From Pseudoclavibacter sp. RFBB5 (GTDB lineage: Bacteria; Actinomycetota; Actinomycetes; Actinomycetales; Microbacteriaceae), in NCBI RefSeq assembly GCF_002931555.1, contig NZ_PSTZ01000003.1, forward strand, positions 62,001 to 126,000: a DNA stretch of 64,000 nt. The letters run 5' to 3'. The notes beneath the pieces were generated by a model. That model was given only the letters and a program-made list of their open reading frames with translations, was not told the DNA's origin and searched no databases. The translations under genes were made by a program, and so were the position numbers. Below, one piece after another: positions 2,380 to 14,814 of this stretch; within the stretch, counting starts at the first letter, position 1, and every line of letters starts with the position of its first letter.

Positions 2380-3810
2380 CTACTTTCCGGGTGCCGATTC
2401 GCCGAGTTCTTCGAGGATGCGGTTGAGATCGGCGATCGAGGCGAAGTCGACGACGATCTGACCCTTGGTGCGGCGGAGCGTGACCTTGACGCGGGTGTTG
2501 AGCCGGTCGCCGAGCTGCTCGCCGATCTCGTCGAGGTACCCCGTGAGACCGCTGCGTGGCTCCTTGTGGATGGGTGCCTGCGTGTCGGCCTTGGCGCTGC
2601 TGGACTTCGCTGCGGCTGCCTCGGCGGATCGAACGCTGAGGTCTTCGTTGACGATCTTGTCGGCGAGCTGCTGCATCGCCGCGGGTTCCCCGGCGCTGAG
2701 GATCGCGCGTGCGTGACCGGCAGAGAGGACTCCGGCCGCGACACGACGCTGCACTTCCAGCGGGAGGCGCAGGAGGCGCAGCGTGTTGCTGATCTGTGGA
2801 CGCGAACGGCCGATGCGTTCGGCGAGCACCTCTTGGGTGATCCCGAAGTCGTTGAGGAGCTGCTGGTACGCGGATGCTTCTTCGAGCGGGTTGAGCTGAC
2901 TGCGGTGCAGGTTCTCGAGAAGCGCGTCACGCAGCATGACGTCGTCTTCAGTGTTCCGGATGACGGCGGGGATGCTCTCCAGGCCTGCCGCCTTCGTCGC
3001 GCGCAGGCGACGCTCGCCCATGATGAGCTCGTAATCGGCCTCATCGCGCAGCGGATGGTCGGCAGGGATGGGACGCACGACGATCGGCTGGAGCACACCG
3101 AACTCCCGAACCGACGTGATGAGCTCCTGGAGGGCATCTTCGTCGAACTCCGTGCGGGGCTGGTGCGCGTTCGGAACGATGCGGTTCGGATCCAGAGCGC
3201 GCAGGGTGGCGCCCGGGATCTCAACCAGACCGTCGGAGTCCTCGTCTCCGGTTGAGTCTTCCGAGCCCTGGCTCTCGCCACTCGCAGCTGTCGCCGCTGT
3301 AGCGGCGGTTTCGGTTGTTCCGGCCTCAAGCCCGGCTGAATCGTTGTTCGTCGATTCAGTGGTCTCCGCTCGTGTGGTTGTCTCGTTCGTTTCTGCAGCT
3401 ACGGCCGCCTCGTTGGCATCTGGCTTCGCGGTGGTGCGTGCTTTCGACGATGCTGCTGTCGTCCTTCTTGCCGGCGCCTTATCTGCCGATGCCTTCTTCG
3501 CGGTGCCACTCTTCACCGTCGCGGCGTCCACTGCGGGCACCTTTGCTCGGCTCGCGCGTGCAGGTGCCGCCCGCTTGGGTGAGTTGGCCGTGGACTTCTC
3601 CGACGCGGGGGCCGCCTTCGAGGTGTCTTCCGAGGCTCCGTCTGCCTTCGGTGAAGACTCTGCTGGATTGGTGCGTGACGATGCAGTCGTCGGGTACGCC
3701 GGTGTCTCGCTGTCGAAGAACACGTCTGAAGGGCGCGAGGCGCCTCTATCGGAGGTCGGGATGAGAGCGCCGATGCCTCGTCCCAGTCCGGTGCGTTTCT
3801 TGGTTGCCAT
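2380..3810 (-). CDS. parB: chromosome-partitioning protein ParB with very long N-terminal linker
   Basis: A CTP-dependent DNA clamp that loads at parS and spreads to build the segregation complex. The ATG at 3810 gives 476 residues. Order: ParA-interaction motif GLGRGIGALIP (about 8-18); an Ala/Glu/Thr/Ser/Lys-rich low-complexity stretch (about 20-195); ParB N-domain with GERRLRA (about 265-271) and ENLHRSQLNPLEEA; helix-turn-helix (about 324-345, ITQEVLAERIGRSRPQISN); C-terminal dimerisation domain (about 420-470). Typical ParB proteins have roughly 280-340 residues, and the excess is almost all in the linker. It starts 5 bp after the parA stop, so the two are an operon, and the island beside it supplies 18 target sites. 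Confidence 0.97.
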   Translation of the reverse strand: MATKKRTGLGRGIGALIPTSDRGASRPSDVFFDSETPAYPTTASSRTNPAESSPKADGASEDTSKAAPASEKSTANSPKRAAPARASRAKVPAVDAATVKSGTAKKASADKAPARRTTAASSKARTTAKPDANEAAVAAETNETTTRAETTESTNNDSAGLEAGTTETAATAATAASGESQGSEDSTGDEDSDGLVEIPGATLRALDPNRIVPNAHQPRTEFDEDALQELITSVREFGVLQPIVVRPIPADHPLRDEADYELIMGERRLRATKAAGLESIPAVIRNTEDDVMLRDALLENLHRSQLNPLEEASAYQQLLNDFGITQEVLAERIGRSRPQISNTLRLLRLPLEVQRRVAAGVLSAGHARAILSAGEPAAMQQLADKIVNEDLSVRSAEAAAAKSSSAKADTQAPIHKEPRSGLTGYLDEIGEQLGDRLNTRVKVTLRRTKGQIVVDFASIADLNRILEELGESAPGK

Positions 3811-4739: not shown

Positions 4740-4844
4740 GAATGCTCTCCCTCAAGTAGACGTCTCAATTGTGCCTCACATCCGCAATGGAAACGCGGCG
4801 ACGCTCAGAGTTGTGGAATCGCCGAGGCTGGTGGCGCGGCGCAA

Positions 4845-4858
4845 GTTTCACGTGAAAC
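4845..4858. other. parS site 1, perfect palindrome
   Basis: GTTTCACGTGAAAC exactly. It is 106 bp upstream of the parA start, so it could also affect parA expression. Confidence 0.93.
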
Positions 4859-5169
4859 ACGGCCCATACTTCAACTTCAGCCACAGGGTTGACTTGTTGG
4901 GCTGTCCGTCCTGGGCAGCAGGGTGGCGTTCCCGCGCAGAGACATGAAGATTGGGGCCGGACCCGCCGAACCGAGCTGACTACTCACTGGAGGTCGTTGA
5001 TCTGCAGAGACAGTCTTTCCCGTGGGCCTTCGACGCACTTGATCCCTGCCGCGTGCACATGCATCGCCGGTCTTGCAGGATTCCACGCAAGGCGCACGAC
5101 TCTCATTGGACCAAGGACTGCAGCCGACGGCAGCAAGAATTGAAGCGCTGGGCCCGTGATCTCGTGCTC

Positions 5170-5183
5170 GTTTCACGTGAAAC
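5170..5183. other. parS site 2, perfect palindrome
   Basis: GTTTCACGTGAAAC exactly, 325 bp from site 1. Confidence 0.93.
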
Positions 5184-5520
5184 GTGGGGTATCCCGTGCG
5201 AGTGGCTGAAGCACACTTCTCCGCTTGTAGCGACGCGAAGTCCTATGGGGAGATTGTTTTGCGGGTACGAGTGCGTCTGCACCCATTGATCGATCCAACG
5301 AGGTCTCACGACTGTCACGAAAGACAACCTCCGAGCTGAACTGAACAGGTCGGGTACTCTCTCTTTCCGCGAGAGGGACGCCTCACTCGACGCAGGCCAA
5401 TGAGGACTCGGACTGTGGAGCCGGGGCGGGGTTGCGGCTCTCCGGACCGCCATCCCCAGCCTGGGCAGGTGGGGCGCCTCGGATCACGGTGTACCTCGGC
5501 GCCCTGGCGCACGCTCCGGA

Positions 5521-5534
5521 GTTTCACGTGAAAC
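5521..5534. other. parS site 3, perfect palindrome
   Basis: GTTTCACGTGAAAC exactly, 351 bp from site 2. Confidence 0.93.
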
Positions 5535-5744
5535 ACGCGTGCGACTGCGTGCTGACTGAGGGGGTCTAATCCCTACGACTCAATCCGCCGGGGTTGCGTG
5601 ATCGGGGGCAGGGCCCTGCGCTCTCCATACGCAAACCCTCTGCCCTATCCGCGCTTCGCCTCTATTCAAGTCGGAGGCAGAAACCTCGGTACGCCACGGC
5701 TCCACCGTTGTCCCGCCTGTGCTGAATGATCCGTACAGTCCAGC

Positions 5745-5758
5745 GTTCCACGTGAAAC
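5745..5758 (+). other. parS site 4, one mismatch
   Basis: GTTCCACGTGAAAC; the fourth base is C instead of T. Confidence 0.9.
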
Positions 5759-6372
5759 CTCTGGTTGTAGGTCCCCGCGGTTCGCGGTTCGCCGACTCTC
5801 TACGAATGGCCACACGTGCAATACAGGCCGGCTCAAACATGATCCCGACCAAATCGATGACACGGCGAGAGACGACAACAGCCGACCCGACGACAGGCTG
5901 TGACTGTGCCCCGGCACCTTGACGGACCCGGTGAGCTGACCGAGGCCCCGGGCCCCGGCCTGCCCGACCCAGGGCATGCCCTGATCAACCAAAACGCTTC
6001 CTGAGCTAGATTCACGTTTGGTCCTCCCACATGTGGCGACCGTCAGACGACGAGTCGTGCGCCGGTTGTTGCACCACGGCCGCGCCAACTCAAGCCCTCT
6101 GTGCTTGTTGAGGAGAATCGACGACCCTACTGGCCGCAGCACTCTGAGCACAGAATACGTCCCGGGTCTCTCTGCTGTTCCGCTGCCGGACGTTGGCGTG
6201 AGCCACCTGGTGAGCCACCTAGAGCTCATTCAGGACTGGGGTGGAATGGGTCGCAGGTTCTAAGCTGGCCCGCCAAGCTCGTACCCAGATGAGAACGACG
6301 AAGCCTAGGTGTGAGTGTGACTACTCAAAGAGCACTGTCTCGCTTCGCCAACAAAGGGACCAGCGCGACTCA

Positions 6373-6386
6373 GTTCCACGTGAAAC
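6373..6386 (+). other. parS site 5, one mismatch
   Basis: GTTCCACGTGAAAC, followed by a further A as in the 16-bp consensus. Confidence 0.9.
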
Positions 6387-6917
6387 ATGTCGAGCTTCCC
6401 CCTATGGAGTCCTGCGTTGGATGATGCTCGTGGTCAGTCGCCGACGAGGCCCGGTCCATGTCTCCGAATAGCGCGCGTAGATATTTCGCGTGCCCGGCCG
6501 CTAGCTCCCGGGTCTGCGTACCGCAAAGCCGAACCTCCGCGCTGTGGCACGAACAAAGCTGTCGACCGCAATCACGCGCAGCCTTCCGGGCTCATCCCAT
6601 CAGTGCTCTTGTAGGACTGCGGTGCTTTTGCGGGTCCCTTTCGTGTTCCAGTTTCACTCTCTCACTGACGCATACGTAACGTCGTCGTCTTCTCAGTGAG
6701 CGAGCCGCATGCGCACGATATCCGTCCGCAAGATCTGACCGGCGGCGGGTATGGTCATTCGGCGATTGGAGCCTCGAGGGCAACAGTCGATCAAGTCGGC
6801 ATTCCCCCTTCCCACCCCCTCCTAGATGTAGGCCCGTAGCGTAGCCCGTGGACACGATCTCGGCCTCGTCGGGCCCTTGAATGAGCCGGGAACCAGGAGA
6901 CACGGCGCGAGCTTGCG

Positions 6918-6949
6918 GTGCTGCCCGGTTGCCGTGCTGCCCGGTTGCC
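6918..6949 (+). repeat. two tandem copies of a 16-bp unit
   Basis: GTGCTGCCCGGTTGCC occurs twice head to tail with no mismatch, in non-coding DNA. Confidence 0.85.
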
Positions 6950-7350
6950 GCGAGCCGAGCCATGCCGCTAGTTCCGAGGCCTGAACCAAGCGCCGGGAGC
7001 GGCGCACGACGCCAGTCTCCTGGCGCGCCAGGGTCGCCACAGGGAGCCACGTGGGGGCCGTCTGTCTGTTGCTGCGTGATACCTGACGGGTGAGGCGTCG
7101 CGGCGAGTGGAGGGTGCCGTGAGGCAGGAAGAACGAGGCGAGGTGGGGGCGGACCGGCCTTTCAGAGCCACAGGGTGAGGGGTGAGCCCTCTTCCCACGA
7201 ACTGCCCACCGCTGCGGGCTGCCTCGGTTCGGGAGGAAGTCCCGTACCAATCACCCATCTCGCCACTGTCACCAGTGTCCCGGGATATGCAGGCCCCGCA
7301 GGCCAGCAGGGTAGGCAGACCAAGCACAGGAGGCCCGACAAGGTGGTTAG

Positions 7351-7372
7351 ACACCGACAGGCCTGTCGGTGT
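7351..7372. repeat. 22-bp perfect palindrome in the parS island
   Basis: ACACCGACAGG is followed immediately by its exact reverse complement. It is unrelated to parS, lies 31 bp before parS site 6, and could be a binding site for another protein. Confidence 0.7.
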
Positions 7373-7402
7373 TCGATCTCGGCCCGCGTCGATACTGGAT
7401 CT

Positions 7403-7416
7403 GTTTCACGTGGAAC
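7403..7416 (-). other. parS site 6, one mismatch, inverted variant
   Basis: GTTTCACGTGGAAC is the reverse complement of the common GTTCC variant. It lies 31 bp after a 22-bp palindrome. Confidence 0.9.
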
Positions 7417-7562
7417 CCGGTGCTTGTTCCCACACTTCGGGACTGCACGCCAAGGCAGTGCCCCGTCCATAACTAGAGCCTCGGGTGCAGCATGCTGAGC
7501 CCGAGTCTTGTTCTACGCAATACGTGATCCGACCGACCGACACGAGGCTGGTCTGGGCTGCC

Positions 7563-7576
7563 GTTTCACGTGAAAC
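7563..7576. other. parS site 7, perfect palindrome
   Basis: GTTTCACGTGAAAC exactly, 118 bp before the repeat array. Confidence 0.93.
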
Positions 7577-7680
7577 GAACACATGGGACGCGGGCCCCGG
7601 ACATGGCCATGCGTGTGAGCCCCGCTGCTTCAGACTAAACGGGACCAGAATGTCCATCCTCGCCGTGGCTGTAACTGGTC

Positions 7681-7694
7681 GTTCCACGTGAAAC
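7681..7694 (+). other. parS site 8, array position A1
   Basis: GTTCCACGTGAAAC; first A-position of the repeat array. Confidence 0.9.
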
Positions 7695-7788
7695 AGAATC
7701 GCACATCGTTTCCGCGATGAGCGTGCGAGATCTTTGTTCCTAGAGAGGCGAGACCACCTCATCTCCTCCGCACGCAAGCAACCTCGTC

Positions 7789-7802
7789 GTTCCACGTGAA
7801 AC
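7789..7802 (+). other. parS site 9, array position A2
   Basis: GTTCCACGTGAAAC, 108 bp after A1. Confidence 0.9.
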
Positions 7803-7842
7803 GAACAGTGTTTTTGCTGTTTGGCAGGTTCCCAAGCTAGTC

Positions 7843-7856
7843 GTTCCACGTGAAAC
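7843..7856 (+). other. parS site 10, array position B2
   Basis: GTTCCACGTGAAAC, 54 bp after A2; the only intact B-position. Confidence 0.9.
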
Positions 7857-7897
7857 GGAACCATGCATTGTCTCTGTAGTGAGTGTAGGAGCTCGTC

Positions 7898-7911
7898 GTT
7901 CCACGTGAAAC
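7898..7911 (+). other. parS site 11, array position A3
   Basis: GTTCCACGTGAAAC, 109 bp after A2. Confidence 0.9.
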
Positions 7912-8015
7912 CGGAACTGGCCTACTGATTGGCAGGGGCCGGAGCTGATCGCCCTACCTGAAACGGAAGCGCGGCACAGGCCTCGGACGTGACAGCCTTT
8001 CGCGCGAAGCGAGTC

Positions 8016-8029
8016 GTTCCACGTGAAAC
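8016..8029 (+). other. parS site 12, array position A4
   Basis: GTTCCACGTGAAAC, 118 bp after A3; preceded by a decayed copy at 7997-8010. Confidence 0.9.
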
Positions 8030-8133
8030 TAGGCATGCCTGTTCTCTCGGTATCCACTCGAGCTGGTCGTTCCGCGTGAACAGAACTGAAGCGATCCTCG
8101 GCGTTGAACTCGTCATCCCGCACGAAGCGAGTC

Positions 8134-8147
8134 GTTCCACGTGAAAC
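8134..8147 (+). other. parS site 13, array position A5
   Basis: GTTCCACGTGAAAC, 118 bp after A4; preceded by a decayed copy at 8115-8128. Confidence 0.9.
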
Positions 8148-9484
8148 GAAAGTTGCTGGCTGGCGAGGAATTGGGCCGCGGAGACTGGCTCGGTGTCTGT
8201 CTTCGATCAGCCCGACTGCGCCGCGCTACAGCGCCGTAGATGAGATGCTCGTCATCGCTCACGAGCCTTCGCGAGCAGATTCGGTTGGATGAGGGCACCG
8301 TGCTCATCTGTTTACGGGCCGCGACGCGCAGGACGTATATCGCCCGTGGAGATCGCTCCCCTGGGAATGCGGTGGTGATGGAGACCTGTCCAACGAGCAG
8401 TCGGCTCGGGCCCAACGCCACACACTTCGGACCGCACGGCGCGCAGCTCGCACCAAATGCCTCACAGCGCACAGCAGCGCTACAACGCCACAGTCTTACC
8501 GCTCACCGGCGACCAGTTTCGTCTCGCAGCTCTCGGCCTGGCGCCTCGAGACACTCGGCATAGGGGCACGGGCACGGGCTGTGGAGATGAGGTCAGGGAT
8601 GGCGGTGGGGCAGTGACCGCAGTGTTGCTCGCCGCACACACTACGCCGGCCAGGACGGTTAGAACACGGAGGGAGCCGGAGTGGGCGCCTGGAGGATCTT
8701 GCAGCGCTCTGTCCGCTGTTTGACCCTGGGACTGCACGTTGTGCCTTCCGTCAAGCCGTCGCAACATTGCAGATCGCCCAGATCACTCTGCTCGAGACAC
8801 GCGATTTGGCAATCCACTGTCTGGCCAGCACCAAGGACGGACGCCGGCGCTCATCCCAGCGGCACCGAGCACCGAGGCTCACGTGGTTCCACCACTCCAA
8901 CACAGGAAGCAGGCCAGACCGAGATTCAGTAGCCTCATAAGGCGACCATGCCTTCGTAGTCATGCCGTGTCTCGATCTGTCTAACCCGGCCGGTGCGTAG
9001 TCCAGCCCTGGCCAGGGCAGGCCCAGCGCCGGATCCGTCTAGCCTTTGAGACCCAAGGGGTGCCGCTGGGATGAGACCTAACCCCTAGCGCTCGATGACC
9101 TGTAGGTTCCAGGCGAGAGTTGCACTCACCCCGTCACTGCCCCCTCGATCGAATGTTCGTCGACTCCGTACTCCGTTCCCATCCTCCGGCCGTTAGGTCA
9201 GTTCGGGAATCCACGAACAGCTCGCGCAATTTGAGTCCCCACTCGCGGGCTCCGTTTCGTCAGCGGACTACATCGACGGTGGCATTCAACCGGTAGAGAC
9301 GGTTTCGACATCCCTGTAATCGGTCTCACCGCTTGAACTGTGTAGTCGGACGGGCGGGCTGCACGAGCACCAGCCCCTAACGACGGTGTTGTCTTCCGGG
9401 ACCAGACAGGTTTCCCAGTGTGAACCAGGTCACTGAACTGGATCGGCCTGGGAGCCCGTTGCGAGATCCAGAGGTGGGCACCTC

Positions 9485-9498
9485 GTTTCACGTGAAAC
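9485..9498. other. parS site 14, perfect palindrome
   Basis: GTTTCACGTGAAAC exactly, after a 1.3-kb stretch without sites. Confidence 0.93.
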
Positions 9499-9695
9499 AG
9501 TTTGGCTCGGCAGCGCACGCCGTTGGTGGTTTGCGTTGTAAATCGCACAGCGGCCCAGATGCGCCGCGCGGGAGTCCGTCCGATCAACCCCTGGAGAGCC
9601 TGTAGATCGGGGCGGGAAGCTAGCAATGACCAAGCCGCCGGACTCTCGGTGAGACGAGTGCGGCTGACCTCATCCACGACCGATCCATACGATCG

Positions 9696-9725
9696 ACTTC
9701 GCACTTCGCACTTCGCACTTCGCAC
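9696..9725 (+). repeat. heptanucleotide repeat, four copies
   Basis: ACTTCGC is repeated four times without interruption, followed by a partial AC. It is a candidate slippage locus in non-coding DNA. Confidence 0.9.
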
Positions 9726-9801
9726 GGGAGAGTAGACCCTGGTGGGGGTGCGCCCAATCCACTCTCTTTATTATGAGTGCGAACACTCCCCAAGGGAGCA
9801 T

Positions 9802-9815
9802 GTTTCACGTGGAAC
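9802..9815 (-). other. parS site 15, one mismatch, inverted variant
   Basis: GTTTCACGTGGAAC; second of two sites with the mismatch in the right arm. Confidence 0.9.
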
Positions 9816-9896
9816 AACGCACGTGGCACAGCACAGCTCACGTACGAGATTCAGCCCAGTACTCCGCTAGTCGCCGGGATTGCCTGTTCATACCCC

Positions 9897-9910
9897 GTTC
9901 CACGTGAAAC
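9897..9910 (+). other. parS site 16, one mismatch
   Basis: GTTCCACGTGAAAC, 95 bp after site 15. Confidence 0.9.
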
Positions 9911-10084
9911 CCTTCGAGTCCAGCCAGTCTTCGACACGATCGACTCACACATACGCGAGCTGTTGCATATCCCGGGCACGACAAGAGGCTTGCATAGGCC
10001 ATTTCCTGCACGGCTCGTGCAGGACCCGGCTCGCGCATGACCGGGCCTTGTTAGCTACACGACCGTGCGGCCAATAGGCACACG

Positions 10085-10098
10085 GTTCCACGTGAAAC
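10085..10098 (+). other. parS site 17, one mismatch
   Basis: GTTCCACGTGAAAC. Confidence 0.9.
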
Positions 10099-10770
10099 AA
10101 CCTCGTGCGGAGAACCGGGCCCAGCGCGAACGCGACGGCCAAAAAGAGACCCTCGGGCCTCGGGCCTTTGCACGCAGCAAAACACCCGCGCTCATGATGG
10201 CCCGAGCCGCCGGCTCGATAGGGTGTCTGCTTATGCACCACGTGCCGCCTCTGTCGGCCATCCATCCATCCCACCGCGAACGAGCACGTCCCTGACCCTC
10301 ACGAGAGGCGTCGTGGATTAGTACCTCTCGAAGGTAACTACCTCCCGAAAGTCCCGCGCAGACGGCCGTCCCGCACCTAGGTAGACAGACGGACGTTCAC
10401 GTGCACGCCCGCGAGAGGCTGGCTGGAGTCAAAACCAAGAGCGGGCTCGTTTCAGATCCCTACTGACGTCACGCCTTGTGAGTTTGGACATGAGATGGGC
10501 CCCTCTGCGCGACTGGGGAACGCTCAGTGTCCGACGCTGTTGCGCAGCGAGAACCTAGTGCGAGTATCGGCAAGCCAAGCCTGCTGCGTTCTCCACCCGA
10601 CCTCGGGTTTTCTGGACCGAAACGTCGAGACCATCGATCGACACAGCCGAAGGCCACCGACGCGTGAGAGCGAGGTTCTCTTCTGCCCTTTCCTGAGGCA
10701 AGCTGCCGAGAAATCGAGGCGCAAGGCCCACTCTGGCGGTACGCACTTCGGAAACGAATCAAACCAGCCT

Positions 10771-10784
10771 GTTTCACGTGAAAC
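10771..10784. other. parS site 18, perfect palindrome
   Basis: GTTTCACGTGAAAC exactly; the last site, 263 bp before the rsmG stop codon. Confidence 0.93.
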
Positions 10785-11046
10785 GAGTGCAGAAGCCACC
10801 GAGCTCGTCTCAAACCGGCGTCAGGAAACGAAGGAAGCATGTCTTGCTGGCGAAAACGCGGTCGTTGTCTGCGTTCGAGCACGACTCTCTTCAGAACGCC
10901 CGCCGATCATCCACATATCAGTAGATCTGGGTGCATTCAAACTCCTGAGCTGCATCGAAGGAGTGGCGCGAACCCACGAGGCAGCATCCTTGAATCGAGA
11001 ATAATCGATACAGGCTCTGATTTCAGACGAACGCGTAGCGATAGTC

Positions 11047-11685
11047 CTAGTCGACCGTTGCGCGGATGACCCGTGTGGCCTCAGTGTCGAGGTTCTCGCC
11101 GAGCTCTTCAACGCGAACATCTGTCAGACCGAACTTTCGGATGGCCTTGCTGGCCTTCTCGATCTCAGCTTCAGCCGATCGCCCCTTGAGGAACACGAGC
11201 TCCCCGCCGGAGCGAACAAGAGGCACCGTGATCGGGATGAGTTTGCTCAGCGCAGATACGGCCCGCGCGGTCAGCTGATCGAAGGTGAACTCATCGTGCA
11301 CTTCCTCAGCTCGCGCTCGACGCACCTGGACGTTCGTGAGAGTGAGGGCATCCACCTCACGCTGCAACCACTCCGTGCGCCGCTCCATGGGTTCGATCAA
11401 CACGAAATTGACGTCAGGACGCGCGATGGCCAGCACGAGACCAGGGAGGCCGGCACCTGAACCGATGTCGCCGACGAGCCCGGGACGCAGCAAGGGAGCC
11501 ATGAGAACCGAATTGATGATGTGCCGAGTCCAGAGGCGGGGGTACTCGAGCGGACCGACGAGGCCGAGCTGCTCCCCGTATTTCGCGAGGTCAGACGTGA
11601 ACGCGCGAGCGAGTTCGATCCGGTCCTCAAACAGCACCTTCGCGATAGCCGGCTCGACCTCGAGTTCATTCGGGTGGTCAGTCAT
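11047..11685 (-). CDS. rsmG: 16S rRNA (guanine527-N7)-methyltransferase RsmG
   Basis: Methylates G527 of 16S rRNA using S-adenosylmethionine. The 212 residues carry WTRHIINSVLMAPLL, the SAM-binding GDIGSGAGLPGL and LIEPMERRTEWL, as in GidB/RsmG proteins, at normal length. ATG at 11685. In relatives parA and parB follow directly; here the parS island follows instead. A 278-bp gap with DnaA boxes separates it from jag upstream. Confidence 0.95.
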   Translation of the reverse strand: MTDHPNELEVEPAIAKVLFEDRIELARAFTSDLAKYGEQLGLVGPLEYPRLWTRHIINSVLMAPLLRPGLVGDIGSGAGLPGLVLAIARPDVNFVLIEPMERRTEWLQREVDALTLTNVQVRRARAEEVHDEFTFDQLTARAVSALSKLIPITVPLVRSGGELVFLKGRSAEAEIEKASKAIRKFGLTDVRVEELGENLDTEATRVIRATVD

Positions 11686-14256: not shown

Positions 14257-14394
14257 CTACGCGGAAAGCTCGGTGCGACCCTTGCGGCGACGAGCCGAGA
14301 GGATGGCGCGACCCGCACGGGTGCGCATACGCAGGCGGAAGCCGTGGGTCTTCGCGCGACGGCGGTTGTTTGGCTGGAAAGTACGCTTCGACAT
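14257..14394 (-). CDS. rpmH: 50S ribosomal protein L34
   Basis: A 45-residue basic protein starting [19 protein letters not shown] and ending [11 protein letters not shown], the canonical bL34 sequence. It is the first gene of the leftward rpmH-rnpA-yidD-yidC-jag operon and is served by a clear promoter 82 bp upstream. Confidence 0.97.
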
Positions 14395-14448
14395 GAGAAC
14401 TCCGGAAGATACGACCCGATCGGCGGACGCCGTACGGATTTTTCACAA

Positions 14449-14467
14449 GTGCCCTACCGAAGGGCAC
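14449..14467 (-). promoter_or_regulatory. hairpin in rpmH leader
   Basis: A GTGCCCT / AGGGCAC stem lies in the predicted 5' untranslated region of rpmH. It may stabilise the transcript or affect ribosomal-protein control. Confidence 0.4.
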
Positions 14468-14476
14468 AACTGCCTT

Positions 14477-14505
14477 AACCTACGTGACCCGCGCCCGGCA
14501 GTCAA
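14477..14505 (-). promoter_or_regulatory. rpmH promoter
   Basis: On the minus strand TTGACT (14505-14500) and TAGGTT (14482-14477) are separated by exactly 17 bp, a strong match to the housekeeping sigma consensus. Confidence 0.75.
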
Positions 14506-14581
14506 CTGACGCCAGAGGGCCAGCATTATGCTCACACCGGTGCCCGGCAAGTGCGCGACATGCCGAATCCTCGCAAAGCGA

Positions 14582-14610
14582 TTGGCGCGCGTGGCGATCC
14601 AGCGTAGGCT
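14582..14610 (+). promoter_or_regulatory. candidate dnaA promoter
   Basis: TTGGCG and TAGGCT with a 17-bp spacer, about 205 bp before dnaA. Three DnaA boxes follow within 65 bp, which would fit autoregulation. Confidence 0.5.
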
Positions 14611-14629
14611 GGCCCCCTACCTCCGCGAG

Positions 14630-14674
14630 TTATGCACAGGCTCCCGCCTGTTTGTCCACAGAAGTTGTGGATAT
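14630..14674. promoter_or_regulatory. DnaA-box cluster upstream of dnaA
   Basis: TTATGCACA (14630-14638), TTGTCCACA (14652-14660, the actinobacterial consensus) and TGTGGATAT (14666-14674). The rest of the 14395-14814 gap holds the promoters for rpmH and dnaA and no other gene. Confidence 0.8.
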
Positions 14675-14814
14675 CTCGCCGGGTAGATCACAATGACTTG
14701 CGCACCAGTGCCACACAGCCGGTGCGTTGACCATGCTGCGAGCGCGCAGCCAAGAAGACGCGGTCCGCAGAGATGCGGTCTCGTGAAGTACAGAGGGACG
14801 GGGGGAGTGCTTCG

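Follow-up and report, generated by a model that had tools for sequence, protein, structure and literature searches.

Why does a Pseudoclavibacter chromosome carry 18 copies of the ParB-binding site parS in a few kilobases without apparent genes, and does that stretch serve as its centromere? In the window (the whole 64,000-nucleotide stretch analysed, from Pseudoclavibacter sp. RFBB5), a search for GTTTCACGTGAAAC with up to three mismatches returned 18 sites, six perfect and 12 with one mismatch, all within 4845–10784, and no half-decayed copies with two or three mismatches; 100 shuffles of the window at the same threshold gave a mean of 1.38 matches and a maximum of 4. The whole assembly (3,774,425 bases in 19 contigs, 98.4% complete), scanned with up to two mismatches, yielded the identical 18 sites and no others, the reversed pattern used as a control gave 4 matches, and at an assumed 66% GC only 0.003 one-mismatch sites are expected per 64 kb and 0.18 per genome. 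On these counts a chance motif was rejected. A sequence-only reading had confined 18 near-consensus sites to this interval, which was borne out, and the equal site density elsewhere in the chromosome that it had named as evidence against itself was not seen. All 12 one-mismatch sites share a single change, GTTCCACGTGAAAC or its complement (the GTTCC form below).

The island is flanked by parA and rsmG and lies about 3.5 kb from the presumed oriC spacer, so that the conserved parS palindrome of a chromosomal ParABS centromere is found concentrated near parAB and a putative oriC. The features are listed below in window coordinates, with the strand where one was assigned; sites were located by motif scan, and partners in exact register in P. 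terrae by alignment as well.

2380..3810, minus strand, parB, 476 aa
3816..4739, minus strand, parA, partition ATPase, start codon uncertain
4740..11046, gene-free parS island from parA to rsmG (parS scans; codon, Pfam and Rfam tests)
4740..4822, minus strand, parA leader, more conserved than any other part of the island in the Pseudoclavibacter loci L006–L008 (89–93% against L007 and L008)
4845..4858, perfect parS, closest to parA, P. terrae register partner
5170..5183, perfect parS, P. terrae register partner
5521..5534, perfect parS
5745..5758, plus strand, parS, GTTCC form
6373..6386, plus strand, parS, GTTCC form, P. terrae register partner
7403..7416, minus strand, parS, GTTCC form
7563..7576, perfect parS, P. 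terrae register partner
7655..8161, plus strand, old tandem array, repeat unit about 54 bp
7681..7694, plus strand, parS, GTTCC form, in the 54-bp array
7789..7802, plus strand, parS, GTTCC form, in the 54-bp array
7843..7856, plus strand, parS, GTTCC form, in the 54-bp array
7898..7911, plus strand, parS, GTTCC form, in the 54-bp array
8016..8029, plus strand, parS, GTTCC form, in the 54-bp array, P. terrae register partner
8134..8147, plus strand, parS, GTTCC form, in the 54-bp array
9485..9498, perfect parS
9802..9815, minus strand, parS, GTTCC form
9897..9910, plus strand, parS, GTTCC form
10085..10098, plus strand, parS, GTTCC form
10771..10784, perfect parS, closest to rsmG
11047..11685, minus strand, rsmG, right border of the island
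14343..14772, dnaA upstream spacer, presumed oriC, 96.7% identical to P. terrae

Spacing of the sites along the island is overall not different from random. The 54-bp array contains six intact sites, two clearly decayed copies (near 7951 and 8069) and one doubtful copy (near 7735); Tandem Repeats Finder reported no parS-bearing array at 7655..8161. The sopC centromere of the F plasmid, a plasmid system with another type of ParB, consists of regular tandem repeats of a ParB-site unit and is in that respect similar, but the window array is old, eroded and just part of the island. A sopC-like centromere was rejected because the eroded array is confined to 7655–8161 and the overall spacing of sites does not differ from random. 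Strand-oriented parS were likewise rejected: ten of the 12 asymmetric sites point the same way, but six of these belong to the one array and the remainder divide 4:2, so the bias was discounted.

By the codon, Pfam and Rfam tests the island is free of apparent genes over 6.3 kb. Its 49 ORFs of 60 aa or more reach −0.17 bits/codon at best in the codon test, compared with 0.31–0.60 for parA, rsmG, yidC, dnaA and jag, and the longest ORF, at 187 aa, is shorter than the mean of 228 under a Markov null. None of the 10 longest ORFs lying wholly inside the island matched Pfam at E 0.1, and Rfam gave no match in the island at the gathering score. A hidden gene or known RNA was rejected on these tests, with the reservation that they might overlook a small or unusual gene, because the short neighbours labelled rnpA and yidD also score low (−0.06 and −0.22). 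A promoter scan with the sigma-70 consensus found 0 in the island against 0.9 expected, which is no significant depletion. The description of a compact, non-coding set of sites beside parAB and near the presumed origin therefore held up under both the site scans and the coding tests. Compared with most of the window, the island has a somewhat raised AT content.

The ParB encoded beside it has a GRG box, a long linker of low complexity (box to GERR, 255 aa), a GERR motif and a helix-turn-helix with R and G at the positions that contact parS in a studied ParB, according to excerpts of PMC7383237. These positions (173/201) were transferred by alignment, and R and G occupy them in the window ParB and in 102 of 103 ParBs, the remaining one being unmatched by the search expression. 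TIGR00180 scored above its cut-off and the Noc model below its own; the protein carries RTRG residues without the Q/R of Noc specificity, and on these protein features a Noc/NBS system was rejected. The island is accordingly paired with a cognate ParB of Spo0J type that has both GERR and the contact residues, and its reading as a predicted centromere is well supported by sequence.

How such an island is maintained was approached by comparison. Genes of P. terrae are 93.9% identical to those of the window and four-fold sites 77.6%, and the island spacer is 66.6% identical against a shuffled null of 63.6%. A lack of relationship to the P. terrae island, as BLAST had suggested, was rejected, since the global alignment lies far above shuffles. 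With parS masked in the alignment, five of the 12 P. terrae sites fall in exact register, and none in 12 shuffles; the unmasked count of 9 of 12 is inflated because the motifs anchor the alignment, and the masked value is preferred. Between 9 (unmasked) and 13 (masked) of the 18 window sites have no register partner, so some are lineage-specific in this comparison, and with parS masked no site falls in register against L007 or L008. Clustered parS occur in all eight genus genomes with the region assembled (the window and seven others); two more (G004 and G007) show no parS, rsmG or parAB-type parA and are therefore read as missing assembly, not as absence of the sites. A 2.9-kb piece of the island has no match outside the island in its own genome, and its sole match among nine congeners is a 50-bp stretch in P. 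terrae (G008). The conserved gene order and this lack of outside matches led us to reject a recent mobile insertion.

These comparisons bear on the strongest alternative, that the island is a neutral satellite in which parS-bearing units multiplied by tandem duplication in a gap that tolerates them; one or two sites would then matter, and the rest, with the long spacer, would be junk. The decayed units of the 54-bp array, the near-saturated spacer and the many sites without register partners favour it. So does C. glutamicum, which grows and segregates its chromosome almost normally with a single parS (PMC7083940, in excerpts), so that the 18 sites may be mostly redundancy. Neutral decay is hard to reconcile, however, with the lack of any half-decayed site in the window while spacer identity is near the null, and with one common change in all 12 variant sites.

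Further evidence comes from Microbacteriaceae at large, in a survey of 99 loci that is not a random sample: 90 genomes hand-picked for genus spread and contig quality from 244 with rsmG, eight added partly for high parS number, and the window. The jag–rsmG, rsmG–parA and parB–ddl gaps together hold 449 of 484 sites (366 in the first two, 83 in the third), and one site lies inside the five core genes tested. Of 114 sites after parB, 13 lie beyond the ddl start and 18 where ddl was not found, in addition to the 83. The summed length of the first two gaps follows the number of sites there (Spearman 0.81; PGLS t = 11; n = 95). Gene-free, parS-rich gaps of at least 1 kb number 41 of 103, a count from which seven rows with a gene-like ORF were removed by hand (such an ORF lies within the gap in L072 and L088) and in which the class "after parB" may be broader than parB–ddl; the control gap yidC–jag, which is without parS, exceeds 1 kb in none of 102. 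This recurrence also argues against the neutral satellite, which we regard as possible but rather unlikely.

A second alternative is that the island is a reservoir or regulator that titrates ParB, sets ParA/ParB levels or silences promoters, segregation needing few sites. One site lies about 100 bp upstream of parA, with sites at similar distance in L006–L008 (in GTTCC form in L007 and L008), and excerpts of PMC6238139 discuss ParB-dependent silencing near parS. In relatives, however, parS are enriched in jag–rsmG or after parB and not at the parA promoter, which makes this reading improbable. That the island descends from the centromere of a plasmid or mobile element that once integrated, as its AT-richness and the resemblance of dense parS beside parAB to plasmid partition loci might suggest, is scarcely credible given the jag-rsmG-parA-parB-ddl order native to the family, the chromosomal type of motif and ParB, the near absence of matches to the 2.9-kb piece and the lack of known protein families in the 10 longest ORFs.

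We return to the centromere reading, for which comparable gaps give a context. Those of Gulosibacter hominis (L032), g21 (L070, L071), Pseudoclavibacter (L006–L008 and G002/L067), Agromyces and Cryobacterium have the same gene block and motif and an expanded gap with several sites, but in some it is another gap, with fewer sites and a very different spacer; the g21 and Pseudoclavibacter ones, which the codon test covered, score as gene-free. The number of sites ranges across the family from 0 to about 20, and both it and the location of the sites vary even among close relatives. Many relatives have 2–5 only and three listed g6 genomes 10–21 scattered ones, which speaks against the centromere reading. 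Smaller gene-free parS gaps recur throughout the family, and the window stands at the far end of this shared design. The suggestion that this architecture is undescribed for the family stands insofar as no report of such an island in Microbacteriaceae was found in the literature searched. The window is not alone in the family in having one. No publication on chromosome segregation in Pseudoclavibacter was found there either, and the excerpts of PMC9477822 mention only a Gulosibacter plasmid without ParB/ParS.

Compact clusters as such are not new. Most bacteria have parS clustered within 5–40 kb, for which collisions between SMC complexes have been argued (PMC8357415, in excerpts). Myxococcus xanthus has 22 sites clustered within 3 kb, at 4 kb from parA (PMC3899335) and 30–35 kb from the origin (PMC3899335, PMC3778016). 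It resembles the window in having about 20 sites (22–24 reported) in one compact cluster some 4 kb from parA, and differs in being denser, in its consensus TGTTCCACGTGGAACG and in the reported presence of two outliers and a further, distant site. C. glutamicum likewise has an actinobacterial, mostly intergenic cluster (10 sites, nine of them intergenic, ParB-bound in ChIP), but it is spread over 35 kb, 73 kb from oriC, and the excerpts of PMC7083940 describe no dedicated gene-free island. The sequence-only view that parS are usually scattered over tens to hundreds of kilobases, often in genes, was therefore overstated.

It is highly probable, judging from sequence comparison, that the island is the ParABS centromere of the chromosome, and we propose that it would act as a dense ParB/SMC loading point and arise by duplication and decay. 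CTP-ParB clamps, loading at numerous sites a short distance apart, would slide along DNA without genes and perhaps with few bound promoters, meeting few blocks; one dense partition complex would form and be pulled by ParA, and SMC would be loaded from essentially one point, so that collisions between complexes from distant sites might be avoided. According to excerpts, ParB is blocked by promoter regions and bound proteins and not by active transcription (PMC6238139), and short-lived roadblocks have only mild effects in a model (PMC10387095). The single-point argument is weakened by the latter, which suggests that SMC loading could benefit if parS sites lay apart instead of in a cluster. New sites would arise by tandem duplication of parS-bearing units (5 of 60 loci have tandem parS arrays, and L021 shows the clearest one, with 130 bp and 94% matches), and selection would keep parS while the spacer decays and sites are lost and regained. 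Place and size of the island would persist in the short term, while the sequence, the exact sites and even the gap change.

On one quick tree, scored with this broad "after parB" class, parsimony requires a minimum of 13 switches of the favoured gap. Because relatives keep the stretch in different gaps and with very different spacers, the island looks like a fast-changing centromere. We tentatively suggest, at somewhat less than even likelihood, that Microbacteriaceae have a satellite-like, relocating centromere renewed by duplication and decay, with gap moves, near-saturated turnover and a ParB linker that co-varies with parS number. Such a system, in which island and ParB tail evolve together, would parallel in bacteria the fast-evolving centromeres of eukaryotes and would bear on why bacteria keep surplus parS and cluster them. 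With its natural series of site number and place, its culturable members and the linker trend, this family opens questions of ParB loading, roadblocks, SMC collision and centromere turnover to experimental test.

Some species show clear blocks of positive and then negative charge in the linker but others have none, and we therefore draw no claim from them. Numerous parS tend to go with a longer low-complexity linker (PGLS p = 3.5e-4 with lambda 0.88, and 0.028 under Brownian motion; without Pseudoclavibacter, 3.5e-5 and 0.0024), in a set of genomes with canonical parS, three without being left out, and with the linker of L152 (box variant GQG) hand-set to 100. The link is partly phylogeny: linker length shows only about four changes of state on the tree, and treated as discrete gains the association was not significant in an independent-pairs test (median p 0.25). 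Among genomes with long linkers (at least 140 aa), 15 of 18 carry at least nine parS.

The 18 ParB sites (parS) found in the window at up to one mismatch from GTTTCACGTGAAAC all lie within 4845-10784 and span the interval between parA and rsmG (4740-11046, the island); the same scan gave no sites with two or three mismatches. That the sites are exclusive to the island had been read from the sequence alone, with a genome scan as the proposed check, and it holds for the whole assembly (3.77 Mb, 19 contigs), where a search at up to two mismatches returned the same 18 and no more. Six of the 18 are perfect palindromes and 12 share a single change, T to C at position 4 or its mirror, which is also found in 81 of the 108 one-mismatch sites at 60 loci. 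The features of the region are as follows.

2380-3810 (minus strand), parB, 476 aa, with a GRG box at the N terminus, then a long low-complexity linker, a GERR motif and a helix-turn-helix
3816-4739 (minus strand), parA, the left border of the island
7681-8134, six parS that belong to an eroded array with a repeat unit of about 54 bp; two further copies are clearly decayed and a third doubtfully so
11047-11685 (minus strand), rsmG, the right border of the island

No gene was found in the parA-rsmG interval by codon score, ORF length, Pfam or Rfam, and its GC content per kb is 0.60-0.63 (5 to 11 kb) versus 0.62-0.71 past 17 kb of the window. With dnaA starting at 14773, about 3.5 kb separate the last parS from the spacer presumed to be the origin. 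The island also holds a short perfect repeat, ACTTCGC x 4.3, at 9696-9725.

At least one canonical parS is present in 242 of 249 Microbacteriaceae genomes, among which the count of 18 in the window's genome ranks second to the 21 of a draft (G252) with sites over eight contigs. Within 99 loci of about 20 kb each, 484 sites were located: 229 between rsmG and parA, 137 between jag and rsmG, and 114 after parB (83 between parB and ddl, 13 past the ddl start and 18 where no ddl was found), with one upstream of jag, two unclassified and a single site inside a core gene (dnaA, yidC, jag, rsmG or parA). The summed length of the jag-rsmG and rsmG-parA gaps climbs with their site number (Spearman 0.81, n=95; t=11 in regression on the tree, PGLS); the nearby yidC-jag gap, by comparison, is nowhere longer than 556 bp (102 genomes). 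In 41 of 103 genomes there is a gap that measures 1 kb or more, holds three or more sites and lacks any gene-like ORF. The gene-free state does not hold for every large gap, as clear gene-like ORFs lie within those of loci L072 and L088 and weaker ones in a few others. Parsimony gives at least 13 switches of the favoured gap among the 60 genomes that have one.

Clustered parS (4-18 sites) were found in 8 of the 10 Pseudoclavibacter genomes searched, the window's included. The other two gave no parS and likewise no rsmG or parAB-type parA, so the region is probably absent from those assemblies. The island occupies the rsmG-parA gap in the window, in loci L006-L009 and in genome G009; in G002 and G003 it lies between jag and rsmG, with a single further site in rsmG-parA. 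The nearest named relative is Pseudoclavibacter terrae, whose rsmG is 98% identical. Genes of the two are 93.9% identical and four-fold sites 77.6%; identity is 80% in the neighbouring jag-rsmG spacer and 97% in the spacer upstream of dnaA. With sites masked, the island spacer is 66.6% identical (63.6% in shuffles) and its alignment score is far above the null; the two islands are thus homologous. Of the 12 sites in P. terrae, five are in exact register with window sites, and none in 12 shuffles, so sites are retained whereas the spacer is not, and several parS differ by gain or loss between closely related species. In the comparison with L007 and L008, where four-fold sites are 52-53% identical, nearly all that aligns is the parA leader, and none of the sites keeps exact register. 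Tandem parS arrays occur in 5 of the 60 loci, which by their names or codes belong to four other genera; these arrays suggest how parS are gained. Cryobacterium sp. Y11 carries after parB a clean 130-bp array (L021:13026-13962; 7.2 copies, 94% matches, 8 parS), a good subject for array dynamics.

The specificity residues of the window ParB are R-T-R-G, of which R and G are parS contacts in a ParB/Noc specificity study (PMC7383237). Most genomes have a linker, measured from the GRG box to GERR, of about 96-136 aa; long ones are found in Pseudoclavibacter (178-319), the genus coded g21 (197-253), Gulosibacter hominis L032 (187), G171 (200), g71 (212-218) and g6 (144-174). Long-linker genomes are for the most part site-rich, yet G009, G079 and G001 have few sites by the exact pattern (4, 6 and 7), and short linkers occur despite many sites in, for example, G134 (9 sites, 104 aa) and G114 (9 sites, 103 aa). 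PGLS supports a link between linker length and site number, but the tree shows about four changes behind it, and as a discrete test it is not significant.

ParB clamps load at parS and then slide until blocked by DNA-bound proteins, notably at promoters, active transcription as such being no block (PMC6238139), and parS clustering would spare SMC complexes loaded at distant sites from colliding (PMC8357415). Many loading sites on a gene-free stretch fit both ideas; what is shown for the island is its sequence, and the steps of this mechanism are inferred. The modelling in PMC10387095 counts against them: short-lived roadblocks were mild in effect, and SMC loading may, the authors suggest, be favoured by parS that are separated.

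The architecture had been put forward as not known to be described for the family, and that part stands, in that the non-subscription literature searched gave no report on chromosomal parS of Microbacteriaceae. Judged by title and abstract, none of the matches listed was evidently about a chromosomal parS island free of genes, in a literature that does not extend to the parS survey of Livny et al. 2007. Compact clusters themselves are already known, with 22 parS in 3 kb in Myxococcus xanthus (PMC3899335) and 10 in 35 kb, nine of them intergenic, in C. glutamicum (PMC7083940).

The opposite architecture is found in the same family in g6 (G252, G208, G158), where small genomes of 1.3-1.9 Mb carry 10-21 parS that are scattered on several contigs, across many tens of kb. 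Four g17 genomes (G025, G105, G166, G215; 93-100% complete) have no canonical parS, and three of them none even at two mismatches. Both g17 loci examined, L156 and L157, contain parA and parB, and in the L157 ParB the contact residues R and G are retained. The gaps showed no obvious palindrome that might stand in for parS. Genome G227 is also without canonical parS; its locus L107 has four one-mismatch sites, of which three read GTTTCACATGAAAC or the complement of that sequence, possibly a drift of the consensus.
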